64,000 bases of DNA from Modestobacter altitudinis (lineage in GTDB: Bacteria > Actinomycetota > Actinomycetes > Mycobacteriales > Geodermatophilaceae), in contig NZ_SJEW01000006.1 in the NCBI RefSeq assembly GCF_005930475.1, positions 1 to 64,000 on the forward strand, read 5' to 3'. Position numbers and translations under genes: made by a program. The notes below the pieces were generated by a model. It was not told where the DNA came from and searched no databases. It saw only the letters and a program-made list of their open reading frames with translations. Every line of letters starts with the position of its first letter. Within the stretch, counting starts at the first letter, position 1. Positions 2,956 to 62,970 of the stretch are shown piece by piece.

Positions 2956-3074
2956 GGGCCTCCTGCCGGGACGGACGCTCGGGGAACCTACCGCCCGGCG
3001 CCGCACTCGGGGCATGCTGAGGCTGCCGCAGGCCCTGTGCTTGCGCGTCTCCGGGCCAGGGAAGGACCACTGCC

Positions 3075-4247: not shown

Positions 4248-4273
4248 GCCGGCCGGTGGGGCAGGGTGGGGTC

Positions 4274-4387
4274 ATGACGACACCGCCGGACGGCGAGCCG
4301 CAGCCCCGCGACATCGCACTCGAGCAGGCCACCCCCGAGCAGGTCGAGGAGCTCGAGGCGGCCAGCGACGACGAGGGCACCGACTGA
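4274..4387 (+). CDS. Small acidic protein, 37 aa
   Basis: The ATG at 4274 is preceded by GGGTGGGG, 26 bp after the kinase stop. The translated peptide is MTTPPDGEPQ followed by a helix-prone acidic run ending ATPEQVEELEAASDDEGTD. The position directly after a kinase gene and the coherent acidic composition suggest a real small gene, but it is too short for family assignment. Confidence 0.45.
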   Translation: MTTPPDGEPQPRDIALEQATPEQVEELEAASDDEGTD

Positions 4388-4454
4388 CCCCACCCGGGCA
4401 CCCGAGCCGACGGCGCGGGGTTGACGCGGTGCGGCCGACGGGTAGCGGCCCGGC

Positions 4455-4964: not shown

Positions 4965-5005
4965 GCACACGGCACCGGGGGTGACCCGCAGGTAGCTTCG
5001 GATCC

Positions 5006-6229
5006 GTGAGCAACGCTGCTACCGCGGACTTCTACGCCCTCGAGGACCTGCTGGAGCCCGCGGAGATCGAGGTGCGTGACCGCGTTCGCGACTTCTGCGA
5101 GCGCGAGGTCACCCCGATCATCAACGACTTCTGGGAGCGGGCCGAGTTCCCCGCTCAGCTGATCCCGAAGATGGCCGAGCTGGGCATCGCCGGCGGCACC
5201 GTGGAGGGCTACGGCTCCCCCGGCATGAGCGCCGTCGCCGCGGGCCTGGTCGCCGCCGAGTGGGCCCGGGCCGACGGCAGCCTGGGCACCTTCTACGGGG
5301 TGCACAGCTTCCTGGCCATGCAGTCCATCGCGCTGCTCGGGAACGAGGAGCAGCGCCAGCGGTGGCTGCCGGAGATGGCCCGGATGGAGAAGATCGGCGC
5401 CTTCGGCCTGACCGAGCCCGAGCACGGGTCGGACGCCGTGGCGTTGTCCACCTCCGCCCGGCGGGACGGCGACTCCTACGTGCTCAACGGCGCGAAGAAG
5501 TGGATCGGCAACGGCACCATCGCCGACCTGGTGCTCATCTGGGCCCGCGGTGAGGACGGCAACGTCGGTGGCTACGTCGTCCCGAAGGGGTCGATCGGCT
5601 GGACCGCGACCCGGATGACCGGCAAGACGGCGCTGCGTGCGGTGTGGCAGGCCGAGATCACGCTGACCGACGTCCGGGTGCCGGCGGAGAACAAGCTGGC
5701 CAACTGCTCCTCGTTCAAGGACGTCTCGGTGGTGCTGGACCGCACCCGGTACACCGTCGCGTGGCGCGCGCTGGGCATCGCCGAGGCCGCCTACGACCTG
5801 GCGCTGCAGCACACCCTGCAGCGGGAGCAGTTCGGCCAGCCGATCGCCGGCTACCAGCTGGTGCAGGAGAAGCTGGCCCGGATGCTCGCCGAGATCACCA
5901 GCATGCGGCTGCTGTCCTGGCGGCTGTCCAAGCTGGCCGACGAGGGCCGGATGACCGCGGCCATGGCGTCGATGGCGAAGATGAACAACTGCAAGAAGGC
6001 CCGGGCGATCGTGGCCGACGCCCGCGACCTCTTCGGTGGCGACGGCATCCTGCTCGAGCACCACATCGCCCGGCACCACGCCGACATCGAGGCGATCTAC
6101 ACCTTCGAGGGCACCGACCACGTGCAGGCGCTCATCGTCGGCCGTGAGATCACCGGCATCTCGGCGATCACCGGCCGCCGGTCCTCCCGGGCGGAGCAGC
6201 GGCCGGCGGAGCCGCAGCAGTCGATCTAG
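5006..6229 (+). CDS. Acyl-CoA dehydrogenase, glutaryl-CoA dehydrogenase-like
   Basis: 407 residues, GTG start. Family signatures are present: 'GAFGLTEPEHGSDAVAL' (FAD/substrate loop), 'NGAKKWIGNGTIADL', 'RTRYTVAWRALGIAEAAYD', 'REQFGQPIAGYQLVQEKLA' and 'DLFGGDGI'. The segment TFEGTDHVQALIVGREITG matches the glutaryl-CoA dehydrogenase form (usually YEGTHDIHALI), placing the catalytic base at E368. The expected reaction is oxidative decarboxylation of glutaryl-CoA to crotonyl-CoA in lysine/tryptophan catabolism, with FAD and ETF. No pathway partner is adjacent, so the substrate is inferred from family. The end overlaps the convergent LuxR gene by 62 bp. Confidence 0.85.
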   Translation: MSNAATADFYALEDLLEPAEIEVRDRVRDFCEREVTPIINDFWERAEFPAQLIPKMAELGIAGGTVEGYGSPGMSAVAAGLVAAEWARADGSLGTFYGVHSFLAMQSIALLGNEEQRQRWLPEMARMEKIGAFGLTEPEHGSDAVALSTSARRDGDSYVLNGAKKWIGNGTIADLVLIWARGEDGNVGGYVVPKGSIGWTATRMTGKTALRAVWQAEITLTDVRVPAENKLANCSSFKDVSVVLDRTRYTVAWRALGIAEAAYDLALQHTLQREQFGQPIAGYQLVQEKLARMLAEITSMRLLSWRLSKLADEGRMTAAMASMAKMNNCKKARAIVADARDLFGGDGILLEHHIARHHADIEAIYTFEGTDHVQALIVGREITGISAITGRRSSRAEQRPAEPQQSI

Positions 6230-6998
6230 CGCGCAGGTGGGCCGGCGCGTGCGGCAGCGCCATGGCCGCCGCGGACAGGACGCTGTGCACGCCCAGCCGC
6301 TCCCGCACGTGCTCCATGTGCTTGCGCACCGTGCCCACGGAGATGAACAACCGGTCGGCGATGACGGCGTAGGGCATCCCGGTGGCGGCCAGGGCCAGGA
6401 CCTCCCACTCCCGCGTGGTCAGCCGGGGGACGCCGGCTCGGCGCTGCTCGGCGTCCAGCCAGATCTCCTGCAGGTGCGGCCGCAGCAGCATCGCGATCTG
6501 ACGCTCCCGCTCGGTGAAGTCCGCGTCGTCGTGCCGCATGAAGCAGATGCGCCGGGCCTCACCGGGTGGTGCCGGCAGCGACACGATCAGCGCCGCGCGC
6601 ACCTCCGGCAAGAGGTCGCCGAGCGGACTGGCCAGCCGGGCCTGCTCGGTCGGGAAGAAGTCCCGGGTCTGGATGACGGTGTGCAGGTCGCCGGTGCGCT
6701 GGGGCCAGGAACACAGCCCGTGCCACCAGTACTGCCAGAACGGGTGGTCCGGCCCGCCTCCTTCGTGGGCAGCCGGCCCTTCGTGCAGGCCGCCGTCCCC
6801 GACCCTCTGGATGCAGAGGTTGCGCAGGCCCCGGTGGTCGTGGTGCTGGTAGGAGACGTCCAGGTCGCAGGGGACCAGCCGGAGCAGCCCCTCCAGCAGG
6901 GCCCAGGGCATCGCCTCCCCGGCGGCGTCCTCGCGCGCATCGTCGAGCACGCGGACCAGCGCCTCGACGTCCGCGGCGTGCAGCTCGCTGGTCGTCAT
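6168..6998 (-). CDS. LuxR-family transcriptional regulator
   Basis: 276 residues from the ATG at 6998, with GGAGGAGG nine bases upstream. The N-terminal 180 residues look like a degenerate GAF/PAS-type sensor (aromatic-rich 'HPFWQYWWHGLCSWPQ'). The C-terminal 65 residues are a clear GerE/LuxR helix-turn-helix: 'LTTREWEVLALAATGMPYAVIADRLFISVGTVRKHMEHVRERLGV'. The tail is proline/alanine rich. It is a DNA-binding regulator with an unknown signal. No target is evident, and the neighbouring genes face away or converge. Confidence 0.85.
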   Translation of the reverse strand: MTTSELHAADVEALVRVLDDAREDAAGEAMPWALLEGLLRLVPCDLDVSYQHHDHRGLRNLCIQRVGDGGLHEGPAAHEGGGPDHPFWQYWWHGLCSWPQRTGDLHTVIQTRDFFPTEQARLASPLGDLLPEVRAALIVSLPAPPGEARRICFMRHDDADFTERERQIAMLLRPHLQEIWLDAEQRRAGVPRLTTREWEVLALAATGMPYAVIADRLFISVGTVRKHMEHVRERLGVHSVLSAAAMALPHAPAHLRARSTAAAPPAAAPPGRTGGR

Positions 6999-15584: not shown

Positions 15585-16061
15585 TCAGTGGTACTGGTGG
15601 ACGACGGCGTGCCCCCGGCCACGGCTCATCAGCCAGCGGTTGACCGGGAGGGTGAGCACGAAGGCCACCGCCAGCGACCCGGCCAACGCCAGCCAGAACA
15701 GCGCGCTGCCGAGCCCGGCGTCCATCGCGCCGGGCACGGAGAGGATCACGGTGTTGTCGACGACCTCCATGACGGTGATGGAGATGGTGTCGGCGGCGAG
15801 GGCAACGCCGAGCGCCTGCCGGACCGGCAGCCCCGCGCGCAGCACCCCGCGCATGGTCAGCGCGTAGCCGAAGACGAAGGCCAACGCGATGGCGAGGACC
15901 ACCGTGCCGGCGTCGGGCAGCCCGAGCGACGTCCCGATGACCATCCCGAGGACCTCACCGATGGCGCAGCCGGTGAGGCAGTGCAGCGTCGCCTGCCGGG
16001 CCATGGCCCAGCTGACCGACGTCTGCTGCTCCCTGTGCTCCACGTGCTCCGTGTGCTCCAT
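15585..16061 (-). CDS. DUF4396 membrane protein, possibly metal-responsive
   Basis: 158 residues from the ATG at 16061. The N-terminal tail MEHTEHVEHREQQ is His-rich (four His in 13 residues), which suits metal binding. Four hydrophobic helices follow, with the DUF4396 core 'ATLHCLTGCAIGEVLGMVIGTSLGL', 'GYALTMRGVLRAGLPVRQALGVALAADTISITVMEVVDN' and a final 'FVLTLPVNRWLMSRGRGHAVVHQYH'. The two Cys in HCLTGC lie in a helix. A CsoR-like operator lies 10 bp upstream. DUF4396 is uncharacterised; a role in copper handling is inferred from the operator and the His tail. Confidence 0.8.
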   Translation of the reverse strand: MEHTEHVEHREQQTSVSWAMARQATLHCLTGCAIGEVLGMVIGTSLGLPDAGTVVLAIALAFVFGYALTMRGVLRAGLPVRQALGVALAADTISITVMEVVDNTVILSVPGAMDAGLGSALFWLALAGSLAVAFVLTLPVNRWLMSRGRGHAVVHQYH

Positions 16062-16071
16062 GTCGGTAGTG

Positions 16072-16088
16072 ATACCCCCCCGGGGTAT
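16072..16088. promoter_or_regulatory. CsoR-like operator ATACCCCCCCGGGGTAT
   Basis: The near-perfect palindrome ATACCCC/GGGGTAT is the core of operators bound by the copper-sensing repressor CsoR and its relatives in actinobacteria. It starts 10 bp upstream of the DUF4396 ATG, where it would block the promoter or early transcript. No csoR gene is in this window. Confidence 0.65.
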
Positions 16089-16220
16089 GTGACGCGAGGG
16101 GCTGCTGCGCCGGATCGACACGGTGCAGGGGCGTGCTTGGCGAGATCCGCCAGGCTCCCGGCGATCTTCTGGTGACCTGCTTCACAGTCGACGCACCGAT
16201 CGGCTGCCGATGCTCTGTCC

Positions 16221-17852
16221 ATGGCATCCCGGCTCGCAACGGTGCGGACCACGACCGAGCACTCCGTCGCGTCGGGGCAGGCCCCGGCCGACTGGTGGCG
16301 GACCGCCGTGGTCTACCAGGTCTACCTGCGCTCCTTCGCCGACAGCAACGGCGACGGGATCGGTGACCTCGCCGGTCTCCGCTCCCGGCTGCCCTACCTG
16401 TCCTGGCTCGGGGTCGACGCACTGTGGATCAACCCGCACTACCCCTCGGGCGGCGCGGACGGCGGCTACGACATCGTCGACTACCGCGCGGTGGACCCGG
16501 ACTACGGCGACGTGGCCGACCTCGTGGCCCTCGTCGAGGACGCCCGCCGGCTCGGCCTGCGGGTCATCCTCGACGTCGTCCCCAACCACACCTCCGACCG
16601 GCACCCCTGGTTCCAGGCCGCGCTCGCCGACCCGGACTCCGCCGAGGCCGCCCGCTACCACTTCGCGCCGCCCTCGGCGGAGCCGCCGAACAACTGGCAG
16701 TCGCTCTTCGGCGGCCCGGCCTGGTCGCGCACGCCGGACGGCCGCTGGTACCTGCACCTGTTCGCCCCCGAGCAGCCCGACCTGAACTGGCGGGACCCGG
16801 CCGTGGCCGCCGACTTCGACCGCACCCTGCGGTTCTGGCTGGACCGAGGCGTGAGCGGGTTCCGGGTCGACGTCGCCTACGGGCTGTTCAAGGACGCCGA
16901 GCTGCGGGACAACCCCGGCAGCTACTCCCCCACCCTGTTCGGGCACGGGCCGGAGCAGGCGATGACCTGGAACCAGCCCGAGGTGCACGACGTGTGGCGC
17001 CGCTGGCGGTCGGTCTGCGACGAGTACCCCGACACGATGCTGGTCGGCGAGGTCTGCCTGGCCGACCTGGAGCAGGTCGCGCTGTACTCGCGGCCCGACG
17101 AGATGCACCAGTCCTTCTCCTTCCGGCTGCTCAAGTCGACGTGGGACACCGCCGCCTTCGCCGACGGGGTGCAGTCCGCGCTCGACGCCTTCGCCCGGGT
17201 CGGCGCCCCGGTCTCCTGGGTGCTGGGCAACCACGACAAGGACCGGCAGGTGAGCCGGTTCGGCGGCGGGGCGCTCGGCACCTCCCGGGCCCGCGCCGCC
17301 GCGCTGATGGTGCTGGCGCTGCCCGGCTCGCCGTACCTGTACGCCGGGGACGAGCTCGGGCTGCCGCAGGCCGTCGTCCCCGACGAGGCGAAGCTCGACC
17401 CGATCTTCTGGCGCAGCGGCGGTGCGCGGGCGGGCCGGGACGGCTGCCGGGTGCCGATGCCGTGGAACGAGACGGCCGGCGTCGGCTTCTCCCCCGACGG
17501 CGCGGCGGAGCCGTGGCTGCCGATCCCGGCGGAGTGGGAGGGGTTCGCGGTGTCCCGGCAGACCCGCGACGGCGGCTCGATGCTGACCCTCTACCGCCGC
17601 GCGCTCGCCCTGCGCGCGGCCCACTCGGCGCTGGGCTCCGGGGACGCGACGGTGGAGACCCAGGGCGACGTGCTGACCGTGCGCAGCGTCGGCGACGACG
17701 AGACCGTGCGGTGCGTGGTCAACATGGGCACCGGGACGGCCCTGGTGCCCAACCCGGGCTCGGTGCTGCTGGCCTCCTCCACGCACGTGAAGACCTCGGC
17801 GGCCACCGTGGCGCTCCCGCCGGACACCGCCGTCTGGCTTCTCGAGGACTGA
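16221..17852 (+). CDS. GH13 alpha-glucosidase (oligo-1,6-glucosidase/trehalose-synthase-like)
   Basis: 543 residues. GH13 signatures are in order: 'WWRTAVVYQVYLRSFADSNGDGIGDL' (27-50), 'DVVPNHTSDRHPWF' (118-131), 'GFRVDVAY' with nucleophile D217, 'LVGEV' with acid/base E277, and 'LGNHDKDR' with D339. The catalytic triad is intact. The 'PDLNWRDPAV' segment is typical of alpha-1,4 or alpha-1,6-glucosidases. No signal peptide is clear, so it is probably cytosolic. The start is uncertain because no strong ribosome-binding site precedes the ATG. It lies tail to tail with the polyol operon. Confidence 0.88.
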   Translation: MASRLATVRTTTEHSVASGQAPADWWRTAVVYQVYLRSFADSNGDGIGDLAGLRSRLPYLSWLGVDALWINPHYPSGGADGGYDIVDYRAVDPDYGDVADLVALVEDARRLGLRVILDVVPNHTSDRHPWFQAALADPDSAEAARYHFAPPSAEPPNNWQSLFGGPAWSRTPDGRWYLHLFAPEQPDLNWRDPAVAADFDRTLRFWLDRGVSGFRVDVAYGLFKDAELRDNPGSYSPTLFGHGPEQAMTWNQPEVHDVWRRWRSVCDEYPDTMLVGEVCLADLEQVALYSRPDEMHQSFSFRLLKSTWDTAAFADGVQSALDAFARVGAPVSWVLGNHDKDRQVSRFGGGALGTSRARAAALMVLALPGSPYLYAGDELGLPQAVVPDEAKLDPIFWRSGGARAGRDGCRVPMPWNETAGVGFSPDGAAEPWLPIPAEWEGFAVSRQTRDGGSMLTLYRRALALRAAHSALGSGDATVETQGDVLTVRSVGDDETVRCVVNMGTGTALVPNPGSVLLASSTHVKTSAATVALPPDTAVWLLED

Positions 17853-41157: not shown

Positions 41158-43368
41158 TCAGGTCTGCGCGCTGTTGTCGACGTGCGTCAGCTCCCGACGT
41201 GCCGTGTCCAAGTCCCTCGCCAACCGCTCGGAATCGATGCTGTGCGTTGTACTGAGATTCATCAGCCGGGTGCTGCCTCCGTGCTGGCGATCCGGGTAGT
41301 ACAGCTCCGCATGCTGACATGAAGGACAGTGCAGTATTGCGACGAAGGGATCCAGGAGTAAGAGACGGCCCGAGGAGAGCCGCCCGTAGAGGAGACCGGG
41401 TTCGAGCGGCTCGGTCGATCCAAACTCGGCGCGTTCGAAGTCCGGATGGTCGCCCATCAGTGACAGCGCCTTGACGATGTGCCAGCGCTGTCGGCGCTCC
41501 CAGTCCGCGCGCTCGACTAAGAACCACTGCATCTGGCTAAGCAAGGCGCTGCCGGCCAACGCCGAATTGAGCAGGTCCTCCAACTCGGGCAGCTGCTCAG
41601 CGGCCGCCGCCGCCGTTCGAGGGCCGCGCCGATGAGCGACCCCATTGCGAATCTCCACCAACGCATCCAAGTCCCGCAGGAGGCCCTTGTTCCGCCTGGA
41701 CCGCGTCGCCTCACCGACGCCGAACGGGTCCAGGTCAGCACGACGACTAGCCTCCCCGACATCGCGCAGCAGCTTCAGCCAGTGACCTGGACTGAGGCCT
41801 CGTGAGTCGAGCGCCGAGAACCAGTCCGCGGCGCCCGTAACCTGCAGCTGGCTGGACACGGCACTGGCGGCCGCAACCGCCCCGAGTGTGGCGAGCAGAG
41901 CCTCAGCGGCACGTACGGACGCGTCGTATCGCTGCAGCGGGTCCTCGACAAGCTTCATCTGCCGAAGCGAACGGGCGATCGGGTGCGGGTAGACGTCTTG
42001 GTAGGACTGCGTAGGCTCCTCCTGGCGGAGCAGTGCCTGCTCCGTCACCGTGGCACGCTCAGCCACCTGGGCTACCCGGGCGGCTACCTCTGCACCGTCC
42101 GAGGTAGTGAAGGCGTCGTCCAAAGCCGAGTTCAGGTCCTCGACGATGTTGAGCACTTGCTCGCGGACCTTCAGCACACGGCTCGCGTGTGCGGCGGCCT
42201 TCGTCGCCATCTCGATGTCGGTGTAGGGCACCGGGAGTGCCTCCAGGTCCGCGCGGCGCAGCCGCGGCATCACGGTCCCCATTGGCGGCAGTAGCCGCGA
42301 CGCGACCGAGCTCCGAAGAAAGGCGACGAGGTAGTCGCCCATTGCTGGGTCCTCAGGGCGAACGACCAAGGTTCCGTTCCCCGCCACGACGCCATCGAGT
42401 TCGGCGGGAACGACCGCCCAGACGTAAGGCCGCATGTCACGTCCGACGATGTCGCCGCCCTGAAGCCGAGTCGCTCGACCGGCGACTGGCTCGATCGGTA
42501 ACGATGCAAGGTCGGGTAGGGCCGGCGCCACGGCCTTGGCGGCAAGCATGGGCTCCATCGCCTCGGCACGACCTGCCGGACGGCCGGACCGGACCGTGGC
42601 CAGTTCGCTCAATGGCACGTTGCGGGCGGAGCGGTGGGCGGCTTCGATGAGGCTCAGCCGCTCGGGGTGCAACGCCTCCTCTACCCACGGGGCGCCGGCG
42701 GGCAACCGGGCGCTGAAGCCCTCCGAGAACTGCGTGGCCGGCGCGGCTCCCCCCCTCGCTGTGCGCAGCACGTCGGCTAGTCGAGTGCCCTGTCGATTGT
42801 CACGTGTCAGGCTCGCGAAGCGGGTTGGCTCTGCATCGGACGGCATCCGTGGCTCCAGCCGGAGGAGAACCTGCTGCTGGCCGAGCAGACCAGAGGGCCA
42901 AGGAACCCGGATCACGTCGCTCACGTGCACCAGGTCCAGCAACCGCGTACGTAGCTGTTCCATCCGGGCGGACGAGATCACGTGATATGGAACGGCGACT
43001 ACCGCCCGCTGCAGTGGTCGGTCCGCGACAGCCACCGCCTCGGCCAGCACGAGCAGCGCGTCATCAGAGGGCGGAGGCCCCGACGCGAGCGGCATCGGCA
43101 GCACTCCGACGAATGCAGTGGCATCCGAGTGCAAGGTCAGCTGACGGCGAAGCCGCAATGGACTAGCCGACACGAACGCTGTAACGGGGTTGTCCGCATC
43201 CTCCGGCTCAAAGCCGCGGTCTAGCTCGCCGTCCGCCGGCTCCGGCAAATCGACGCCGAAGGCGACGATGATGCGGTCCTCGCGTTCAGGCTGCAGGAGC
43301 GCCTCAAGGACCGGGGCCGCCTGGGAACCGCCGAGCCCCTCTAAAACCTTGCGCCACCCAGAAACCAT
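41158..43368 (-). CDS. Type I S-subunit-like recognition domain fused to HEPN domain
   Basis: 736 residues from the ATG at 43368 (CAGGAG seven bases upstream; the frame extends to 43440). Residues 1-240 are an unrecognised alpha/beta part. Residues about 250-385 resemble a type I/IIG target-recognition domain: 'VPLSELATVRSGRP', 'GGDIVGRDMRPYVWAVV', 'GNGTLVVRPEDPAMGDYLVAFLRS' and 'MGTVMPRLRRADLEALPVP'. A helical stretch follows, then a HEPN-like helical domain (about 475-610) with EIRNGVAH, the RNxxxH ribonuclease motif (R574, N575, H579). A C-terminal module carries CPSC (681-684). It lacks a methylase or helicase partner of its own. A defence role is inferred. Confidence 0.7.
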   Translation of the reverse strand: MVSGWRKVLEGLGGSQAAPVLEALLQPEREDRIIVAFGVDLPEPADGELDRGFEPEDADNPVTAFVSASPLRLRRQLTLHSDATAFVGVLPMPLASGPPPSDDALLVLAEAVAVADRPLQRAVVAVPYHVISSARMEQLRTRLLDLVHVSDVIRVPWPSGLLGQQQVLLRLEPRMPSDAEPTRFASLTRDNRQGTRLADVLRTARGGAAPATQFSEGFSARLPAGAPWVEEALHPERLSLIEAAHRSARNVPLSELATVRSGRPAGRAEAMEPMLAAKAVAPALPDLASLPIEPVAGRATRLQGGDIVGRDMRPYVWAVVPAELDGVVAGNGTLVVRPEDPAMGDYLVAFLRSSVASRLLPPMGTVMPRLRRADLEALPVPYTDIEMATKAAAHASRVLKVREQVLNIVEDLNSALDDAFTTSDGAEVAARVAQVAERATVTEQALLRQEEPTQSYQDVYPHPIARSLRQMKLVEDPLQRYDASVRAAEALLATLGAVAAASAVSSQLQVTGAADWFSALDSRGLSPGHWLKLLRDVGEASRRADLDPFGVGEATRSRRNKGLLRDLDALVEIRNGVAHRRGPRTAAAAAEQLPELEDLLNSALAGSALLSQMQWFLVERADWERRQRWHIVKALSLMGDHPDFERAEFGSTEPLEPGLLYGRLSSGRLLLLDPFVAILHCPSCQHAELYYPDRQHGGSTRLMNLSTTHSIDSERLARDLDTARRELTHVDNSAQT

Positions 43369-47998: not shown

Positions 47999-48568
47999 TC
48001 AATCCTCGTCATGCGCGCGCCATAAGAAGGCCGAGTGCAGACCGGGCAGTGTCCGCCAGCCGATGCATCCCCCGATGTCCGTGAAGGCATCGTCCATGCG
48101 GCTGATAACTGCCTCCGCCGTGTCCGCCGTGAGCAGGTCGACCTCAGTGCCCTGGGAAACGAAGGTCTCCATTCGCTGCCGCGCCATCGCATCGTTGTGG
48201 ACCAAGTAGTTCCGCCACGCGTTCAACCACCGCAGCGTTTCGATTGTCTTCTCGTCGAGTTCACGGCTTGCGGATCCGGCGATGGCTCGTGGCGCCTCCT
48301 GCCAACGAGGGATCCAGCCGCGGCGACTTGGTTCGACTTCAGCGAGGTGGTAGGCCCAGTGGATCCAGCCCTCGGCGGCAGCCTGGGCCAGCACGATGGT
48401 CTCGACGGTGGCGTCAATCTCGCGCAGGCGGCGTTCCCGGCCGCCCGTCCCGACCGACTGGATAGCCCGGCGACGAGCCTGGTGCGCTGTGGCGCAGCTG
48501 CGCCGGTACAGCATCACGGCCGGCACGAACTCTGCGGACACCGGCCCAAGACCAAACTCTCCGGCCAT
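47999..48568 (-). CDS. Stand-alone HEPN-domain protein with RNxxxH motif
   Basis: 189 residues, with GGGAGGCCCC before the ATG at 48568. Mostly helical: 'IDATVETIVLAQAAAEGWIHWAYHLAE' and 'LDEKTIETLRWLNAWRNYLVHNDAMARQRMETF'. RNYLVH (R119, N120, H124) is the RNxxxH catalytic motif of HEPN ribonucleases. No MNT-type nucleotidyltransferase antitoxin gene is adjacent. It lies 75 bp after the YgjP peptidase gene and 172 bp before the DUF262 pair, all on one strand. It may be a toxin, an effector of the DUF262 system, or an accessory of the type I operon. Confidence 0.72.
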   Translation of the reverse strand: MAGEFGLGPVSAEFVPAVMLYRRSCATAHQARRRAIQSVGTGGRERRLREIDATVETIVLAQAAAEGWIHWAYHLAEVEPSRRGWIPRWQEAPRAIAGSASRELDEKTIETLRWLNAWRNYLVHNDAMARQRMETFVSQGTEVDLLTADTAEAVISRMDDAFTDIGGCIGWRTLPGLHSAFLWRAHDED

Positions 48569-48643: not shown

Positions 48644-49351
48644 TCACGTCACGTTTCCCATCCAAAGGCGCGACCCCTTACGGGCGAGCTGGCTCTTTAG
48701 CTCCTCGTACTCCGGCATGGCCCGAGCGAGCAGCTGCCAGAACGCCGGCCCGTGGTGCGATTCCCGGAGATGGGCCAGCTCGTGGACGAGCACGTAGTCC
48801 ACCAGCGCCGGCGGCAGTTGGAAGGTGGCCCAGTGCAGCCGCACACGCCCGTGCGCAGAGGCGCTCCCCCACTTGTGTCCGAGATTGGCCACCGAGATGG
48901 CCTGCGGCTCGACGCGGAGCCGTTCGGCCCACGACCGGGTGCGCGGCCTGAGCCAGGCCTCCCCTCGCCGGCGGTACCACTCGATGATCGCCTCGGGGCC
49001 CGCGTCGGCTTTCACGCGCGGAAGCAGGAGGCGCCCGCGCTCGAGCCGCACGTCGGTCGCGTCGTCAGAGAGCTGCAGGCGATAGCTGCGGCCGAGGTAG
49101 GAAAAGCCCTCGCCGTCCACCATCTCCTTGGTGACCGGCTGGTGCTGGAGGGCCTCCTTCTCGGAGAGCTTGCGGTAGACCCATGCCCGCTTGGAGATCA
49201 GGAACTGTTCGAGCTCGTCCGCGGCCACGTCGCTGTCAGCCCGCAGACGGAGCGAGCCGTCTGCCTCGATCGTGAGCCGGGCCTTGCGGCCGCTCCCGGC
49301 CCTCTCGACAGAGACCCGGATGCCATCGAGGTGGAGGACCAGCGCGTTCAC
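48644..49351 (-). CDS. YgjP-type M48-like metallopeptidase (DUF45)
   Basis: 235 residues with a GTG start overlapping the hsdR stop by four bases. The zinc motif is 'VLVHELAHLRESHHGP' (H190, E191, H194, with a downstream His at about 199-200). 'KWGSASAHGRVRLHW' is the typical preceding strand of the family. DUF45/YgjP genes are repeatedly found attached to type I restriction operons; their role there is not settled, but turnover of the HsdR subunit has been considered for other proteases. Confidence 0.85.
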   Translation of the reverse strand: MNALVLHLDGIRVSVERAGSGRKARLTIEADGSLRLRADSDVAADELEQFLISKRAWVYRKLSEKEALQHQPVTKEMVDGEGFSYLGRSYRLQLSDDATDVRLERGRLLLPRVKADAGPEAIIEWYRRRGEAWLRPRTRSWAERLRVEPQAISVANLGHKWGSASAHGRVRLHWATFQLPPALVDYVLVHELAHLRESHHGPAFWQLLARAMPEYEELKSQLARKGSRLWMGNVT

Positions 49352-52300
49352 GAGGCCCTCCCGCCACCGAGCCGCTCGGCGATCAGCGGCTGATTGGCCT
49401 TGGCCAGCTCCATGAGGCGGTCCGCGATGGCGGCCTGCTCCTCGAATGGGAACAGGTCGCGGTCATCGAGGGTGTGGACGAGCTCCTTACGCAGGTCGTC
49501 CTGCGCATGGGGGTTGTGCCAGAAGCGCACGATGCCGGCGTGGTCCACGACCTCCATCACGATCCGCTCGGACAGGTACACGAGGTCGATGCGGACTTTA
49601 CCGGGGAGGTCGGCGCCGGTCGCGAACTCGGCCTCCAGCAGGCCGTAGAAGCGAGCCACCAGCGGGTCGTGGTGTACGGCGTCCTTGTCGACCTCGTCGG
49701 TGGCGCCTTTGAGTAGCTCTTCTAGCGCGAGCGTGAGCTCATCCCACTTGCCCGTGAGCCCCTTGAGGATCTCGTCCAGCCGCTCGGAGAGCTTCGTGTA
49801 GCGAGCCGGATCCTCGTCGAAGTTCTTCCTGATGTGGAACCGCAGGGCGTGTTCCATCTCCGACGCCTTGGCCTTGGCCGACGGGAGGCCTTTGACCTTG
49901 GCGAGGAAGTCCGGATCGGTCACCGACACCGGAGGGATCTTGGTGGCGATGTCCAGCGCGGTGACGTGCTCATCGATGAGCGCGCGCACCTTCTCGCCGT
50001 AGAGGGACGGGTCAAAGTCGCCGAGCCCGTCGTCGCGGTAGCGGCGGCTAGCCACCTTCTGAATGACCCCGAACCGCTTGGCGTCGGGCACGAAGGGCAG
50101 CGCCTCCGGCCGCGGCAGGACGGTGTCGAGGGTGCTGAGGAACTGCTTGAGCAGCACGCCAAAGCGGGCGCGCAGCGCCTCATCGGCGAGCACCTCGACG
50201 CACGCTTCGATGTCCTCGTCCTCATCGAAAGTCTCGATGCCGGCCTGGGCGAAGACGGCGACGACTCGGTGGTGCCGGTCCCGCAGCTTCGGCACTTCGT
50301 CCTTGATGGACGCCAGCGCGCCGACCGCGTCCTCGGCATCCTCCGGCGCGTACGCCTGCAGGGCCCGCTGCAGGTGGGCACCAACTCCGAAGTAGTCGAC
50401 GAGCAACCCGGCCTGCTTACCGGGGGCGGTCCGGTTGACACGGGCGATGGCCTGCAGCAGTTCGGCGTCCTGGATGAAGCGGTCGAGATAGAGCGCCTGC
50501 TCGACCGGAGCGTCGAACCCGGTCAGCAGCATGGTGCGAACGATTAGGAAGGCGATCGGGCTGGTCTGGTCCCCCGCCGGCCCCAGCGGCTTCTTGAAGT
50601 CGGCGATGACGGCGTCCTGGCGTGCCTTGTCCGTCCACTGGGCCCACGTCGGGTCGTCGTTGTGGCTGCCGGAGATCACCGGGATGAAGTCGAGGTCGCG
50701 GATGAGCGGGAGATGCGGCAGCGCCCGCACCAGCACCCGCGTGCGGCGGTCGAGCGCGTCGATATCCAGGCTGCCGTCGGACACGCCGGTCACGAGATGG
50801 TCGGATAGCGCGCTGATCTGACCGACGAGGTCGTCACGGGCCGCGAGTAGCGCGGTGCGGTACCGGACTGTCGCCCGGCGGCTGGTCGCGGCGAGCTGGG
50901 CCTTGAATCCGCCGGGCATGACGGTGGAGACGTAGTGCCACAGCATGGACTTCGCCTTGGCCGCGATCAGCTTCGGCGCTTCCAGGACCGCGCCCGTCGT
51001 GGCATACCGCGCCTTGAGCTTCTCCAGCTCGTCAGCCGGGTGCTCAACGAACATGTCCTCGAACAGCTCATCGAGGTCGCTGCCGCCGGCCACGGCTCCC
51101 TTCGCCGTGCGGCCTTCGTAGAAGATTGGCACGACGGCGCCGTCGCTCTCGGCCTGACGGATCGTGTACTTGTCGATGAAGTCGCCAAAGATCGCCGTGG
51201 TGCGCTTCTTGCCCTCGCGCATGATCGGTGTGCCGGTGAAGCCGATCTTGGCGGCGTTGGGCAGCGCGGCCATCAGGTTGGCGTGCAGGGTCGAGGTCTG
51301 GGAGCGGTGCGCTTCGTCGACCAGGATCACGACGGTCTCGTCGGTATTCAGGACGCCCAGCGACTCCTGCGACTCATCGTCGGCGAGCTGGATGTCCTTG
51401 CCTTCGGCCTGCTGCGCGTCGGTGTCGCGGTACTTCTGGATCATGGCGAACACCAGGGCCGGCCCCTTCTCGGCCAGCACCTTGCGGAGCTTGCTCGCCT
51501 TCCGGGCGCGCTCCACCCCCTCGCCCGAGAGCTTGGCGGTCTCGGCGAGCTGCTTTTCCAGGTCGGTGCGGTCGGTGACAACCACGACCTTGAAGGCCCG
51601 CAGCACCGAATCCGAGCGCATCGCCCGCACGAGAAAGACCATGGTGAGCGACTTCCCGGAGCCCTGCGTGTGCCAGATAAGGCCACCGCGGCGGTCACTC
51701 TCGCCGTCCTGCTGCCGCGTCTTGCCCGTGCGCAGTCGCCGCAGCGCCCGGCCGACCGCGCGGTACTGCTGATACCGCGCCACGATCTTGACGCGCTTGC
51801 CACCAGCCTCCGTGAACAGCGTGAAGTGCCGAACGATGTCCAGGAGGTTCGCGGGGCTGAGCATGCCGGCGACGAGCAGCTCCTGACCCGACAGCTGCGA
51901 TACGGGCTTGCCGAGCGACTGGGCGAGATCGTCACGCGACATGGGGGCGCTGTCTCGCCACTCCAGGTAGTGCTCGGCCCCTGCCGTGAAAGTGCCGACG
52001 CGCGCCCTTTCCCCGTACGTGGAGACGACGAACTGGTTGGTCCAGAAGAGCTGCTCGTTGCCCTCAGGTGCTCCCAGATCGCGCTGGTTGGCGTAGCGGC
52101 GGAGCTGGTTGATTCCCTCGGCCATCGGGTCGGTGACGTAGGGGCTCTTGCACTCGATCACGACCAGCGGGATGCCATTGACGAAGAGCACGACGTCGGG
52201 GACGACGAACTTCTTCGCCTGGCCACCAGGCTCGTCCACCCGGAACTGGTTGATGGCCAGGAAGTCGTTGTTGGACGGCTTGTCGAAGTCGATGAACCTG

Positions 52301-52653
52301 ATCCGCTGCGTTCGCCCCTGATCCCAGTCCGGAAGCCCCGCGACAGACACGCCCTCAAGAAGGCGCTCAGTCATCCGCTCGTTGAGCTCGATGAGCTTGC
52401 CTACTTCAGACCGGGTCAGTGATGAGACCGCCTCGGAGAGCCGGGATTCGTCGAGCCATGGCGAGCCGTCAGGGCCCGGGTTGATCTTGAAGAGAGCTGC
52501 GCGGAGCCGCCCCTCCAAGAGCGAGCCACGGAAGGAGTCCCGCCCGGTCACCGACGGATCCGACTTTGAACCCTCGATGAGCTCCCAGCCAAGCCCCTCC
52601 AGCTGATCCAGCAGTGGCTTTTCGGCTTCTGTGTACTCGGGGCCCGAGGTCAT
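49348..52653 (-). CDS. hsdR: Type I restriction enzyme, R subunit
   Basis: 1101 residues. The N-terminal PD-(D/E)xK nuclease is 'FVVPDVVLFVNGIPLVVIECKSP' followed by 'EGINQLRRYANQR'. The translocase part has Walker A 'GGLIWHTQGSGKSLTMVFLVRAM' and DEAH box 'VVILVDEAHRSQTSTLHANLMAALPNAAKIGFTGTP'. A late 'LLTGFDAPVEQALYLDRFIQDAELLQAIARVNRT' is motif VI. The start overlaps the hsdS stop by four bases. It cuts unmodified DNA after translocation, with HsdM and HsdS. All catalytic motifs are intact. Confidence 0.95.
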   Translation of the reverse strand: MTSGPEYTEAEKPLLDQLEGLGWELIEGSKSDPSVTGRDSFRGSLLEGRLRAALFKINPGPDGSPWLDESRLSEAVSSLTRSEVGKLIELNERMTERLLEGVSVAGLPDWDQGRTQRIRFIDFDKPSNNDFLAINQFRVDEPGGQAKKFVVPDVVLFVNGIPLVVIECKSPYVTDPMAEGINQLRRYANQRDLGAPEGNEQLFWTNQFVVSTYGERARVGTFTAGAEHYLEWRDSAPMSRDDLAQSLGKPVSQLSGQELLVAGMLSPANLLDIVRHFTLFTEAGGKRVKIVARYQQYRAVGRALRRLRTGKTRQQDGESDRRGGLIWHTQGSGKSLTMVFLVRAMRSDSVLRAFKVVVVTDRTDLEKQLAETAKLSGEGVERARKASKLRKVLAEKGPALVFAMIQKYRDTDAQQAEGKDIQLADDESQESLGVLNTDETVVILVDEAHRSQTSTLHANLMAALPNAAKIGFTGTPIMREGKKRTTAIFGDFIDKYTIRQAESDGAVVPIFYEGRTAKGAVAGGSDLDELFEDMFVEHPADELEKLKARYATTGAVLEAPKLIAAKAKSMLWHYVSTVMPGGFKAQLAATSRRATVRYRTALLAARDDLVGQISALSDHLVTGVSDGSLDIDALDRRTRVLVRALPHLPLIRDLDFIPVISGSHNDDPTWAQWTDKARQDAVIADFKKPLGPAGDQTSPIAFLIVRTMLLTGFDAPVEQALYLDRFIQDAELLQAIARVNRTAPGKQAGLLVDYFGVGAHLQRALQAYAPEDAEDAVGALASIKDEVPKLRDRHHRVVAVFAQAGIETFDEDEDIEACVEVLADEALRARFGVLLKQFLSTLDTVLPRPEALPFVPDAKRFGVIQKVASRRYRDDGLGDFDPSLYGEKVRALIDEHVTALDIATKIPPVSVTDPDFLAKVKGLPSAKAKASEMEHALRFHIRKNFDEDPARYTKLSERLDEILKGLTGKWDELTLALEELLKGATDEVDKDAVHHDPLVARFYGLLEAEFATGADLPGKVRIDLVYLSERIVMEVVDHAGIVRFWHNPHAQDDLRKELVHTLDDRDLFPFEEQAAIADRLMELAKANQPLIAERLGGGRAS

Positions 52654-53924
52654 GACTGGCCCCCAGTCCCCACCCGAACGCGTCCGGATAGGAGGTCTGC
52701 AGCCAAGCCCTGCTTAAGCGATTTGAGCGCGGCCAGCTCATCACGCGTGCGATCTAGATCGACATCGACGAGGCGCAGGCGATGCGCGATCTCCTCCTGC
52801 TCCCCAAGGGGCGGGACGGTGACGCGAAGCTTGCGGAAATAGGGTAGGCCGATTGTCTGGATAGTACTTCCGAGAGCGATTCCTTCGAATGACCGCTTCA
52901 TAGACTGCAGCCAGTAGTACAGATAGACGTTGTTCAGTTCGCGCCCCACCTGCCAAGCCATGAAGTGCTGACTAACGGCCATGTCTTCGGCGAGAATCGC
53001 ACTCTTCCCCACCCCGGCGTCTCGGCTCAAGATAACGGTTCCGGCAGGGTGTAGGACCGCCGATGAGTTTGCGATACCCGCTTGGCTTATCTGCTTATCT
53101 GTGTCTTCTATAGAGAACCGGTCCAGCTTGGAAGAGTCGGCGAGCGAGACCCACTTTATGCCACCGTTCCAATACGACGGAACATTTCTGTTGGGCGTGT
53201 GACCGCTACCCCTCCTGGCAAAGGTATCAAGCAAGCCAACACGCCACGCCTTGGGCCGCAATCCGTAGACGCCGTCGGCATAAAGCGCCACGCTTTGCTT
53301 CGGTGACGGGCGCAGCCGTCCTGAAGGCGCAATTCCACGCGTCATCAGGTCGGACAGGAGGCCCGACCTGATGACAGACAGTTTCTCGGCGATGCTCTGC
53401 GTTACAGAGATCTGAGCGTCGACTGTGTCTAGAACGGCCGCGATTCGGCACTGTTCGCCGAGCGGCGGTACGGGCACTTCGATCTGCCCGAATTGATTGC
53501 CGGAAATCTCGAGGAAGGTTGTACCCGATGCGCGACGCACGATCTCACGATTCAGTGTCGCAAGAAGGTGGTAGTAGAAGTCGGGCTGGGCGCGACCAGA
53601 GAAGACAATGGCTTTGAAGCCTTGGTTTGTAGTCACCGGGCCCTTGGTGAGAGCGACCAGACCAAGGGTTGCACGGGTAGTCACAAGAAGGGAGTTCGAA
53701 GGAATTAGTCGAGCGCCTGAACTTGCGAGCCCTGCATTGGTAATCGTGTCTGCGGTCTCACTTAGGTACTTGTCCTGAAGTCCGGTCAGTTCGCCCGGCG
53801 TGACCCAAGGAATGCCTCCTCCCCAATACTGGGGAGCTTCCCGAGAGGGGGTGCCGCCTCCAACAATCATTTCTGCGATTCCGTTGATGGTTGTGCGGTC
53901 CCACTCCTTCGCCACGTCACTCAT
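52650..53924 (-). CDS. hsdS: Type I restriction enzyme, S (specificity) subunit
   Basis: 424 residues with two target-recognition domains. The first starts '[31 protein letters not shown]', the second '[37 protein letters not shown]'. Each ends in '[20 protein letters not shown]' or '[32 protein letters not shown]', the conserved spacer helices. It recognises a bipartite DNA sequence. The ATG overlaps the hsdM stop by eight bases. The second recognition domain region is less GC-rich than its neighbours, as expected for exchanged specificity modules. Confidence 0.95.
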
Positions 53925-56325
53925 ATCCGAGCTCCCTCAGGAAGCCGGCAAGCGCCGTGGCGGCAGCGTCACGCTCGGCTTCAAGCGCTGAGAGCGGCGT
54001 CTGGTACTTGCCCCACCAGGTTTCAAAGGCCGAGATCACCGCCCGACGGTGCCGGGTGATGCGTTCCTGGGCCTCGGCCAGCAAGTCATTTTCCATGCCG
54101 TCAAGCACAATCTGACGCGCAGTCGTGTCATCGACGGCCACACTGGCTACTGCGAGGCGATCAGCGAAGGCCGCCTTCCCCGTCCTGAGCTGCTTCTTGG
54201 TAGCTGTTAGTGTGCTCTTCAGCTTCTTAAGTCCCGCGGGCGACAGAGCGTCTTCGGCTGACTCTCCGACGCCATCATCCTCATCATCGAGGGCAGAGGC
54301 CGCCTTGATCGTGCTGTCCAGTTCGGCCACCTCCGCCTCCAGAGCGGCCAATCGGTCGAGGTACTCAGGAAGGAGTGCCTTAGCCACCTTGTGGTCAAGT
54401 GGGTCGACCTTGGCCTTTTCCTCTTCCAGAGCATCGAGCACCGTCGCGACCCATGCCTCGACGAGGCCCTTGTAGCCGAGGGTCGCGAGCGCCTTGAGGT
54501 CCGGCAGGCTCTTCCCCCACCAGGAGGCGAGAACGCCACTCACGGCAAAGCGATCGAGCAGGGGTGTCGCTTGCAGGGCCGACCGGAACGTTCCGATCAG
54601 GTCCTTACGGAGCTCAACAAGATCCGCAACGGTCTCCAGCTTGTCGAAGCGGGGCTCCTCGTCCTTCCACCACCGCTCGATGGCCGCCTGCACCGACGCC
54701 TCAGCGGCGACGACGCCGGGGTCGCCTTCGACGAGGCGACGCAAGTCTCTCCGCTCGGCCACCGAGTCGGCGTACTTCAGGTATCCCTCTGTCTTGGGGA
54801 CGAACAGGTGCTGCGGCTTCATGCCGTGCGCGGCGAACAGTTCGGCCTTGGCCTCGACCTCCCCGATCGGGATGCCGCCGTGCAAGTGGGCCCGGACGTC
54901 CTGCGGCTCAGGCTCGGGCGTGGTGTCGACGTAGCGGCGGATGTTGAGGTTGTCGTCGTTCTCAGCCAGCTCCTGGCGACTGACCACGCGAGCGAACCCG
55001 GAAACGTCCTCGAAGGCGCGGAAGGCGGAGAGGATCTTCTCGACGTGCTCCGGCTCCAGATAGTTCTGCGCTCTGCCTTCGCGGAAGTCGCGGTCGGCGT
55101 TAATGAAGAGCACCTTGTCCTTGCGCTCCGCCTGCTTGGACCCGAGGGGCCGCAGCACCAGGATGCAGGCCGGGATGCCCGTGCCGTAGAAGAGCTGCGG
55201 GCCAAGGCCGATCACCGCCTCGACCATGTCATCGTTGAGGAAGCCGGTGCGGATCCTGCCCTCGTCGCCGCCGCGAAAGAGCACCCCGTGCGGCATGATG
55301 GTCGTGACCATGCCGCCCGGCCGCGTGACCGCCAGCATGTGCTGGACGAACATCAGGTCGGCCTTCTTGCCCTTCTCGGGCGTGTAGCCGTAGCGGAACC
55401 GCTCCGGGAACGGGATCCCGTCGGCGGCGTAGTTCATGGAGAACGGCGGGTTGGTGATCACCCGGTCGAACCGCTGGAGCTCTCCCCCGCTGATGTGCGC
55501 CGGGTCCTCCAGGGTGCCGTCGTCGTTGTTGCGGAGGTCGGCGTCCGGGATGCCGTGCAGGAGCATGTTCATCTTGGAGATGGCCCACACGCTGCCGTCG
55601 CGCTCCTGGCCGGCGAGGGCCAGATTGCGCCCGTCACCGCCGCTCTCCTCGACGTACTCCTTGGAAAGGATCAGCATGCCGCCCGAGCCCGTGCACGGGT
55701 CGTAGACGCTCATGCCCTCATGGGGATCGGCGATCTGAACCATGAGCCGGACGACGTCGCGGGGCGTGTAGAACTCACCCCCCTTCTTGCCGGCCGAGTC
55801 AGCGAAGTCGCGGATCAGGTACTCGTAGGCGGCGCCGAGCAGGTCAGGAAACTCGAAGTCATTCTGGCGCAGCGGAACCTTGTTGAAGTGCATGATCAGT
55901 TCACGCAGCTTCTTGTCCGACATCGACGACTGCCCGACCTTGCGAGTGAAGTCGATGTGCTGCAGGACGCCGTCCAGCGACCGGTTCTCGTGCTCCAGCG
56001 CTTGCAGCGCCTTGTTGAGCTCGCTGCCGACCCCGTGGTGTGCGTGATCGCGGATCTGCGCCCACCGCGCGCGTGTAGGGACGTAGAAGGTCTTGTAGAA
56101 GGATGGCGATTCGGCGCGCTGCTCAGCCTCGGCCTGTGAGCGCCCGCGGGCCAGCTGCACGGCGACTACTTGCTGCCGCTCGTCCTCGAACTGATCCGAG
56201 GCGTACTTCAGGAACAGCATGCCGAAGATGTATTCCTTGTACGCGGAGGCCTCCATCGAGCCCCGCAGTACGTCGGCCGCGGCGAAGAGGTGCCGCTCCA
56301 GCTGGGGCAGCGTCAGCCGCGCCAT
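53917..56325 (-). CDS. hsdM: Type I restriction enzyme, M (methyltransferase) subunit
   Basis: 802 residues. Helical HsdM N-terminus (1-150), SAM-binding motif '[13 protein letters not shown]' (DPCTGSGG 209-216) and catalytic NPPF at 292-295, so an N6-adenine methylase. '[16 protein letters not shown]' precedes motif I as usual. The C-terminal 250 residues form a long coiled-coil extension, making it larger than the about 500-residue EcoKI type but usual for the actinobacterial long form. It is the first gene of the operon. Confidence 0.95.
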
Positions 56326-61582: not shown

Positions 61583-62818
61583 TCACCGCCCAAGTACCCG
61601 GGCGGCTTCGGCGCTGACCACCTGGCGGCCGAAGTAGACGTCCAGGGTCATCGAGGGATTGGCATGGCCGAGCTGGTCGGCGACCTGCCGCGGGGTGAAG
61701 CCGGCTTCGTCCAGCCGGGTGGCGACGGTCTTGCGGAAGGTGTGCGAGGTGACCCAGGACCACGGTCCCTCGCCGCAGCGAACCGGCCGGCCGGTCGCCG
61801 ACGTGGGCGTCGCCGGTTGGAAGCCCGTTCCGCCGCAGACCTCGCACTCGAAGCCGTCCAGCAGCTGGCGCAGGTCGCCGGAGACGCTGTTGGGGTCGCG
61901 CAGCGTGCCGGCTACCGGCGCCGGGAACACCAGTTCGGTGTCCGGCCGGTGGGGTGACGCAAGCCGGCGGCGCACCATCTCGACCGCGAACTCCGGCAGC
62001 GCGATGATCCGCCAGCCCGCGGCGGTCTTGGTCCGCGGCTGCACGACCATCCCCCGCTTGGGCACCCGCACCGCGGTCGCGTTGACCTCCCAGGTGCCGG
62101 CGTCCAGATCCAGCAGCGGCCGGCCGGCGGTCTCCCCCGTCCGCAGCGCCACCGCTTCACCGATCCGGGCGCCGGTGGCGAGCATCCAGTCGACGATGTC
62201 GACGAGATCCAGCTCGGCCGCGCGCGGGCTGGCGTGCAACAGCTCGACTAGCCGGGTGGTCTGCTCGGCGGTCAGCGCCCGTGGTGCCTTCTTGGCGGTG
62301 GTGTCGATCCGGACGGTCGCGTCGCGAACGGGGTTGGCGGTGATGGCGCCGTCGTCGATCGCCTGGGAGAACATCCCGGACAGGCAGGCGCGGGCGGTCT
62401 TGGCCGCACCGGGCCCGCTGGCCTTCGCGATTGCGGTGAGCGCTCGGCCGACCCGGCCGGGGGTGACCTCTTGCAGGGTCAGTTGGCCGAAGGCGGGCAG
62501 CACCGAGGTTCGGATGACCGAGCGGTAGGTGCGTTCGGTGCCGGTGGACCAGCCGTGGTCGGTGCCCAGCCATGCCTCGATGAGCGCGGACACCCGGGAG
62601 CTGGCGGTGATGATCCCGGCGCCACCAGGGCCGCGGCGTGCGGCCAGCTCGGTCTTCAGCGCCCGCTCGGCGGCGGCGCGACTGACGCCGGTCTTGGAGA
62701 CCAGCCGGGTGCGGCCGTCGAAGTCCCGGAAGCGGGCGCGGGCCTGGATCTCACCGCTGGGCAGCAGCAGGAAGCCGATCTTGCCGAACGTGCCCACCGG
62801 CAGCGGTGGTCGTCCCAT
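61583..62818 (-). CDS. int: Tyrosine recombinase (integrase) with Cys insertion
   Basis: 411 residues. The catalytic residues are R218 (ATGARIGEAVAL), H359-x-x-R362 (SHTFRKTVATRL), H385 (LGHANPSM) and Y395 (LDVYFGR); the Lys region is around 'RTKTAAGWR'. The N-terminal SAM-like core-binding domain is 'VSALIEAWLGTDHGWSTGTERTYRSVIRT'. An insertion before the HxxR box carries C325, C328 and C348, which is unusual. The gene lies 79 bp from the tRNA-Asn gene and is the integrase of the 25-kb island. Confidence 0.93.
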   Translation of the reverse strand: MGRPPLPVGTFGKIGFLLLPSGEIQARARFRDFDGRTRLVSKTGVSRAAAERALKTELAARRGPGGAGIITASSRVSALIEAWLGTDHGWSTGTERTYRSVIRTSVLPAFGQLTLQEVTPGRVGRALTAIAKASGPGAAKTARACLSGMFSQAIDDGAITANPVRDATVRIDTTAKKAPRALTAEQTTRLVELLHASPRAAELDLVDIVDWMLATGARIGEAVALRTGETAGRPLLDLDAGTWEVNATAVRVPKRGMVVQPRTKTAAGWRIIALPEFAVEMVRRRLASPHRPDTELVFPAPVAGTLRDPNSVSGDLRQLLDGFECEVCGGTGFQPATPTSATGRPVRCGEGPWSWVTSHTFRKTVATRLDEAGFTPRQVADQLGHANPSMTLDVYFGRQVVSAEAARVLGR

Positions 62819-62896
62819 GCGGCACCTGCCCTCATCGGTTTCCGATGAGTAGATGATGCCTGGATTTTTGCTCCAGAGCTATAAGCCCTGGTCAGA

Positions 62897-62934
62897 GCTC
62901 CCTCGATAGGACTTGAACCTATAACCCTGCGATT
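62897..62934. repeat. Proximal att site within tRNA-Asn
   Basis: This is the 3' half of the tRNA gene (T-arm plus acceptor strand) and one flanking base. It matches 37541-37578 at 34 of 38 positions. Integration here keeps the tRNA gene whole, as is usual for tRNA-targeting elements. Confidence 0.75.
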
Positions 62935-62970
62935 AACAGTCGCATGCTCTGCCAATTGAGCTACGAGGGA
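62898..62970 (-). tRNA. tRNA-Asn (GTT)
   Basis: A 73-nt cloverleaf with seven-base acceptor pair TCCCTCG/CGAGGGA, D-arm around AGCTCAATTGGCAGAGC, anticodon loop CTGTTAA with GTT, and T-arm AGGTTCAAGTCCT. The discriminator base is G and no CCA is encoded. It is the insertion target of the island. Confidence 0.95.

Follow-up and report, generated by a model that had tools for sequence, protein, structure and literature searches.

Within the first 64,000 nucleotides of contig NZ_SJEW01000006.1 of Modestobacter altitudinis (hereafter, the window), a minus-strand gene encodes P0001, a single polypeptide in which a (pseudo)methylase, a target recognition domain (TRD) and a HEPN-type domain are fused. 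We consider it reasonably likely that P0001 is a single-chain defense protein derived from a retired methyltransferase, that is, a PrrC-like second-line HEPN ribonuclease (RNase) effector with a methylase-derived sensor, which would probably provide backup self-shutdown defense beside a restriction system. This assessment draws on the domain architecture, the conservation of the HEPN motif, the loss of the methylase motifs, the restriction-modification (R-M) setting, the four-gene cassette hsdMSR-X that includes a relative of P0001, and the weak diversification of the sensor.

Three fused parts of P0001

The start codon of P0001 (ATG at 43368) is preceded by GGCAGGAG, and the plus-strand frame across 41158-43368 is interrupted by stops. 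No significant domain is detected in P0001 by Pfam. The AlphaFold2 model of the whole chain, built from a 50-row alignment (A6), has a mean predicted local distance difference test score (pLDDT) of 84, with block values of 49-84 for amino acids (aa) 1-240 and mostly above 85 from the TRD onward. A sequence-only reading of this open reading frame (ORF) had described an S-subunit TRD, a helical linker, a HEPN-type domain with an RNxxxH motif and a CPSC module. All of these elements, which lie on the minus strand, and the numbering of R574, N575, H579 and C681-P-S-C684 stand. The recognition part is not, however, simply an S-subunit TRD: aa ~11-240, overlooked in that reading, form a pseudo-methyltransferase, and there are relatives with the whole methylase-TRD-HEPN chain. 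P0001 scores 21.4 bits against the MADS MAD5 NCBIfam equivalog, which has a cut-off of 400. An ordinary HsdS and a chance motif were ruled out by the invariant N and H and by separate fold matches for the three parts.

In structure comparisons with VIA against PDB, the source of all Z scores given here, aa 15-410, TRD included, match the methyltransferase M.BseCI (7qw8; Z 12.4, root mean square deviation (rmsd) 6.8, 315 aligned residues), and other methyltransferase matches of this stretch include CamA, M.TaqI, PglX/BrxX and MmeI. P0001 has the methyltransferase fold without its motifs: both the SAM motif I (DPxxGxGG) and the catalytic motif IV ([NDS]PP[FYW]) are lost. Of the 22 aligned proteins that include a methylase region, eight have an intact motif IV (loci L018, L118, L119, L120, L056, L058, L117 and L121), and 14, P0001 among these, carry an altered one or none; the RNxxxH-type motif is kept in all 22. 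The relatives range from intact methylase-TRD-HEPN proteins to TRD-HEPN proteins. Thus, L018, L150, L065 and L146 match Pfam N6_Mtase (E 1.8e-55 to 4.7e-23) and keep the full order, whereas L060 and L152 consist of the recognition part and HEPN, without a methylase part. In many branches, then, the methylase decays and the HEPN and recognition parts remain. Three plasmid members, one of them a Streptomyces plasmid relative, are annotated merely as 'N-6 DNA methylase'.

The second part has the TRD plus conserved coil fold of HsdS (aa ~235-425). PADLOC Specificity_I profiles match P0001 within aa 247-414 (best E 1.1e-5), and block pLDDT values for aa 241-430 are 67-96. Residues ~242-425 match PacII (7vru; Z 15.1, rmsd 4.5, 174 aligned) and the type I S subunit 1yf2 (Z 13.3, rmsd 3.8, 167 aligned), followed by further S subunits (5ybb, Z 12.9; 3okg, 12.6; 2y7c, 12.5); 8vsq 'Esub1', identified by its title alone, also reaches Z 15.1, and there are DNA-bound homologues among the structural matches. 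The TRD had previously been placed at about residues 250-385, and the clear fold and the profile match bear this out. P0001 departs from the HsdS layout of two TRDs and two conserved arms in having one TRD, the remainder of the chain being methylase and HEPN. Of ten relatives tested, five (L065, L140, L152, L149 and L057) match Specificity_I profiles at E <=0.01, as P0001 does. The other five (L018, L150, L059, L060 and L146) have no TRD profile match at E 0.01, so that the label 'TRD' in these proteins derives from alignment to P0001.

The third part, hereafter the module, comprises the HEPN-type domain and a C-terminal barrel. It was aligned for P0001 and 50 members (alignment A5), with relatives 14-37% identical to P0001. 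In total, 63 ORFs in 60 fetched loci matched the module profile, and 13 were left out of A5, either as near-copies or same-type repeats (L118, L119, L141, L144) or as fragments or interrupted ORFs (L021 twice, L023, L025, L061 twice, L062 twice, L124). Only three columns are invariant across the 51 rows, namely W530, N575 and H579. Position 574 is R in 44 rows, K in five, W in one and C in one, and E489 is conserved in 49; both CPSC cysteines are kept in 36. RN...H is complete in each of the 23 methylase/TRD rows. The motif is also seen in eight of the 13 ORFs left out (L118, L119, L124, L141, L144, L023, one of L061 and one L021 piece); in the interrupted L025 it is not shown, though the match spans the region, and the other four pieces do not span it. 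Thus, RNGVAH of P0001 conforms to the R(N)x3-6H motif of the HEPN superfamily, and the relatives have retained the motif rather than lost it.

For residues 463-612 of the whole-chain model, the matches include 1wwp (Z 8.1, rmsd 3.0, 111 aligned residues) and, from MntA-HepT, the HepT chain 6m6u (Z 7.0). With the module modelled alone (aa 440-736; pLDDT 94.9), the first three VIA matches are HepT chains (Z 6.2, 6.0 and 5.3), and the next, unrelated one has Z 4.3. In comparisons of hidden Markov models (HMM-HMM) covering two HEPN families, the motif is in register with both HepT-like (score 19.8, E 0.015) and RiboL-PSP HEPN (28.6, E 8e-4), against 13.65 and 14.55, respectively, for the best of 20 column shuffles. 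The C-terminal barrel weakly resembles small ribosomal-protein barrels. Taken with the motif, these matches, though of modest Z, make the HEPN assignment of the module very likely, in agreement with the sequence-only reading, which had recognized both the HEPN-like domain and the CPSC module. The motif, the fold and what is known of the family suggest that the domain would act as an RNase.

Two alternatives concern this effector. The HEPN part could be a scaffold without RNase activity, serving for dimerization or RNA binding in an accessory subunit of a restriction system. Some HEPN domains are indeed non-catalytic, and position 574 is not R in seven of the 51 rows. However, N and H are invariant across very divergent partners, and RN...H persists in the methylase/TRD rows while the methylase motifs decay, which makes a scaffold improbable. 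Alternatively, P0001 could be a single-chain DNA restriction enzyme with the HEPN-like domain cutting DNA, an idea with which the type IIG-like order methylase-TRD-nuclease and the annotation of some plasmid relatives as 'restriction endonuclease' are consistent. It is highly improbable, given that P0001 lacks its own protective methylation and that the catalytic motifs of HEPN domains are those of metal-independent RNases.

Partners of the module and the hsdMSR-X cassette

The HEPN module is a portable effector. It follows a receiver domain in nine loci (L063, L064, L128, L132, L133, L136, L147, L148 and L154; Pfam, 9/9), membrane segments in 15 loci (hydropathy), and a type III-like restriction helicase in four A5 rows (the start is missing in L020; both rows tested match in Pfam). 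In a tree built from the 51 modules, six changes are needed to account for the methylase/TRD label, at least three of them forced by supported branches, and one each for the receiver and helicase forms; the receiver-HEPN fusions comprise one supported clade. These receiver fusions suggest two-component control of a HEPN effector. In family f19 (L017, L019, L020, L022, L023, L015), the motif has K for R (KNDYKH or KNDFKH) and the N-terminal partner is the type III-like restriction helicase, replaced in L015 by a membrane N-terminus. In L156 (8714-11365, minus strand), tandem protein kinase domains (Pfam E 4.6e-54) precede the same HEPN module, here with RNNWIGH, an order like that of Ire1, described as kinase plus KEN/HEPN (PMC3710099).

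The phylum search with P0001 found matches in 13 of 396 genomes, two of which (L011, L013) match the TRD only, and the search with profile A1 found the module in 14 of 396. The class search yielded 11/394 genomes, one genus 27/246, the family of the host 13/112, and another family 9/120; these genome draws overlap, with the genome of the window itself counted in both phylum searches and in the class and own-family searches. A first scan of genome contigs with P0001 gave no match. A phage-borne module was ruled out, the P0001 module having no match in phage records and none of the 51 members matching PHROGs; when viral contigs were scanned with the protein of L018, eight loci matched its methylase part, the matches extending to query residues 647-768 of 1120. 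In L061, L062, L123 and L124, the TRD-HEPN ORFs, as called here, are fragmentary or truncated at the 5' end, which hints at frequent decay of this gene type.

One relative, the L065 protein (denoted X), has eight loci in named genomes (L189-L196, its own genome included). In six of the eight, X is the fourth gene, directly behind hsdM-hsdS-hsdR, and these cassettes come from six genera: Mycolicibacterium, Arthrobacter, Microbacterium, Cellulomonas, Dermabacter and Georgenia. In five of the six, a start codon of X is found at -4 to +5 nt relative to the stop of hsdR. In L196, no Hsd gene was found upstream of X, and in L190 there is a contig edge upstream of X. In the latter locus (2740-6690, plus strand), X is followed by an McrB-like gene (AAA plus EVE domain) and then McrC, a type IV partner.

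With the Mycolicibacterium set as the reference, X is 64-67% identical in the other five cassettes. In L192-L195, HsdM is 51-56%, HsdR 48-53% and HsdS 26-31% identical, the HsdS segments reaching 13-38% with the exception of the C-terminal one. L191 carries another Hsd family (HsdM 33%, HsdR 25%; the S gene was found by Pfam only), yet X there is 67% identical. The Specificity_I match of X spans aa 409-499 (E 0.0062), and the segments covering aa 421-540, which hold most of this match, are 61-71% identical, as conserved as the whole chain; aa 301-420 are less conserved (45-65%) but still exceed the HsdS identities of these cassettes. The recognition part is likewise about as conserved as the rest when lone methylase-TRD-HEPN proteins are compared in pairs. 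As an HsdS control served the comparison of the window with genome G999, in which HsdS is 18-38% identical over aa 1-150, against 90% for HsdM and 95% for HsdR. The constancy of X next to the divergent HsdS of its cassettes suggests that its trigger does not vary with the restriction site. The weak diversification of the recognition part, as judged from these sequence comparisons, favors a constant trigger, candidates for which are an unvarying motif, some general state of the DNA and an anti-restriction protein.

These comparisons bear on two further readings of the sensor. In one, which corresponds to the mechanism of the sequence-only reading, the HEPN RNase is turned on when the TRD engages a motif of its own on incoming foreign DNA, with relatives that have an intact methylase protecting the host by methylating the motif. 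The TRD fold, the DNA-bound homologues and the eight proteins with motif IV, which would mark self, speak for such a site sensor. One would, however, expect it to show HsdS-like diversification and to depend on methylation for sparing the host, and neither is seen for P0001 or X: motif IV is not intact in 14 of the 22 proteins, P0001 included, which makes self-protection by their own methylation unlikely, and the TRD of the lone-protein pairs lacks the extra divergence of HsdS. We regard a site sensor as unlikely. In the other reading, the pseudo-methylase-TRD part is a decoy that mimics an R-M or BREX enzyme, so that binding of a phage DNA-mimic or other anti-restriction protein fires the HEPN domain. 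The fairly constant X beside changing R-M systems, L191 included, fits a decoy, as does the combination of dispensable catalysis with a retained shape. Moreover, PglX/BrxX-Ocr and EcoR124I-Ocr chains are among the structural matches, that is, close structural relatives are known Ocr targets. The PARIS proteins are wholly different from P0001; a decoy would share their logic with different parts. PARIS is described as triggered by Ocr, and the likeness would lie in an abortive response to anti-restriction proteins (PMC9122126). With the trigger only a candidate, we consider a decoy rather unlikely as a specific proposal.

The genomic island around P0001

GC content, mostly 0.70-0.76, drops to 0.60-0.69 over the stretch from about 36 to 62 kb. 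This low-GC stretch of about 26 kb, ending at an integrase gene and a tRNA-Asn gene, is a genomic island; for an attachment-site repeat, no exact copy of 14 or more bases of 62801-62960 was found to its left on the same strand. Within the island (Table 1), the same-strand order is hsdM-hsdS-hsdR-YgjP-189aa-GmrSD-GmrSD-P0001. As for PrrC, the HEPN gene is thus linked to a type I R-M locus, in a same-strand cassette with hsdMSR four genes apart. The hhalign comparison of the 189-aa neighbor with the module gave a probability of 0.5%, yet RNYLVH was aligned to RNGVAH; a relative of this protein is encoded in L146 at 15977-16495.

Table 1. Features of P0001 and its surroundings in the window
Feature	Coordinates	Strand	Basis or remark
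P0001, (pseudo)methylase-TRD-HEPN protein, 736 aa	41158..43368	minus	ATG 43368, stop 41158-41160
Degenerate N6-adenine methyltransferase fold, aa ~11-240	42649..43338	minus	structure matches and motif inspection
TRD and coiled-coil arm, half-HsdS-like, aa 235-425	42094..42666	minus	profile and structure matches
HEPN-type helical domain, aa 463-612	41533..41982	minus	1wwp Z 8.1, HepT 6m6u Z 7.0, module model, HMM-HMM
RNxxxH motif RNGVAH, aa 574-579	41632..41649	minus	N, H in 51/51 rows
C-terminal beta barrel with CPSC (681-684), aa 613-736	41161..41532	minus	module model, alignment
GmrSD_N (DUF262) gene, 758 aa	43796..46072	minus	427 nt upstream of P0001
GmrSD_N plus GmrSD_C gene, 585 aa	46069..47826	minus	4-nt overlap with GmrSD_N (DUF262) gene
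189-aa protein with RNYLVH, possible second HEPN	47999..48568	minus	motif; weak PADLOC CARF-HEPN match, E 0.0028
YgjP-like metallopeptidase	48644..49351	minus	E 2.1e-56
HsdR of type I R-M system	49348..52653	minus	profile matches
HsdS (separate, ordinary)	52650..53924	minus	E 3.9e-101
HsdM	53917..56325	minus	E 3.5e-302
Phage-integrase-family gene	61583..62818	minus	PF00589 E 8.9e-15; island edge
tRNA-Asn	62897-62970		beside integrase gene, right island edge

G999 shares the restriction system of the window (the HsdR identity extends over 1019 aa) together with YgjP. Its order is hsdR-YgjP-ATPase gene-GmrSD, and GmrSD has a 1-nt overlap with a methylase-like-TRD-HEPN gene whose kinship to P0001 is only distant. 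In L137, type III Mod/Res genes are nearby. L146 encodes, upstream of the methylase-HEPN gene, an HsdR with an N-terminal domain of DUF4145, one of the HEPN classes (1414-4833, plus strand), so that two HEPN-type fusions lie within one R-M locus.

Proposed mechanism and relation to known systems

Under the PrrC-like reading, the pseudo-methylase, TRD and coil (aa ~11-450) would form the sensor, and the HEPN domain with RNxxxH and the C-terminal barrel (aa ~455-730) the effector, a putative metal-independent RNase that would stay silent until the sensor is engaged. P0001 would be a fallback to the type I R-M system and to further genes of the island. Once restriction is overwhelmed or blocked, the sensor would free the HEPN domain, which would cut cellular RNA and thereby stop growth, as PrrC does for EcoprrI. 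We thus infer for P0001 an RNase activity, its repression and release, and a role in phage defense.

Several observations weigh against this reading. The structural Z scores of the HEPN domain, 5.3-8.1, are under the safe level of the tool for helical bundles, Foldseek with the module alone gave no PDB match at E 0.001, and the module is nearly invisible to Pfam, the HEPN model touching one of 51 members (E 0.0082). K at position 574 in the five f19 rows, and W or C in two others, could weaken catalysis there. P0001 itself is four genes and 6 kb away from hsdR and is preceded by a gap of 427 nt. Apart from the fused gene, Hsd relatives are near the gene in four of 25 methylase/TRD-HEPN loci (only the window, L065, L146 and L149), a count that used the Hsd proteins of the window as queries and can miss other Hsd families. 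R-M linkage of these genes is thus not general. GmrSD, adjoining a methylase/TRD-HEPN gene in only two of 24 genomes, was ruled out as a fixed partner.

Among known systems, PrrC with EcoprrI (type Ic R-M) has a HEPN RNase as a backup beside a type I R-M operon (PMC3506569, PMC3710099), as proposed here for P0001. As outlined in PMC3506569, PrrC is kept silent with an Hsd complex, the triggers of its activation being dTTP, unmodified DNA and an anti-restriction peptide. The difference is in the sensor, which in PrrC is an N-terminal ABC-type NTPase and in P0001 is the methylase-TRD part; Pfam gave no NTPase or ATPase domain match in P0001. With the HEPN-helicase, HEPN-restriction endonuclease and HEPN-ATPase fusions of R-M systems (Anantharaman 2013), P0001 shares the direct joining of HEPN to an R-M component, its own partner being a methylase. 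PglX/BrxX of BREX and the type IIL enzyme MmeI have the same methylase-TRD order and fold; however, the C-terminal part of P0001 is HEPN plus barrel, its methylase motifs are lost, and no BREX gene is among its annotated neighbors. HepT of MntA-HepT is the nearest named solved fold of the effector domain but is a small protein of its own, paired with an MNT antitoxin, and no MNT is among the annotated neighbors of P0001.

A 2013 survey (Anantharaman; PMC3710099) states in its discussion of R-M systems that their HEPN domains have DNases, helicases and ATPases as fusion partners but are fused 'not to the methylases', and bases a mechanism on this; its Table 1 does list HEPN-M (DUF86) as 'occasionally fused to ... 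nucleic acid methylase domains'. Within the open-license PMC literature (bioRxiv being outside this scope), the searches found no description of a methylase-TRD-HEPN protein. We regard this architecture as a variant of R-M-coupled HEPN effectors. More speculatively, and with rather low expectation, these proteins might represent an undescribed class of single-chain methylase-HEPN guards that is widespread among actinobacteria. In such guards, retired DNA methylases would serve as unchanging decoys, detecting anti-restriction measures (or some other general sign of infection) and firing an RNA-cutting HEPN effector, and the gene would come fourth after the genes of type I R-M systems, whatever their specificity.

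The family breaks the rule formulated in 2013: the HEPN motif persists where the methylase often decays, and one branch accompanies R-M systems that change. With the methylase-HEPN chain, the relay from DNA-modification status or anti-restriction to RNA cleavage becomes open to testing within one polypeptide.

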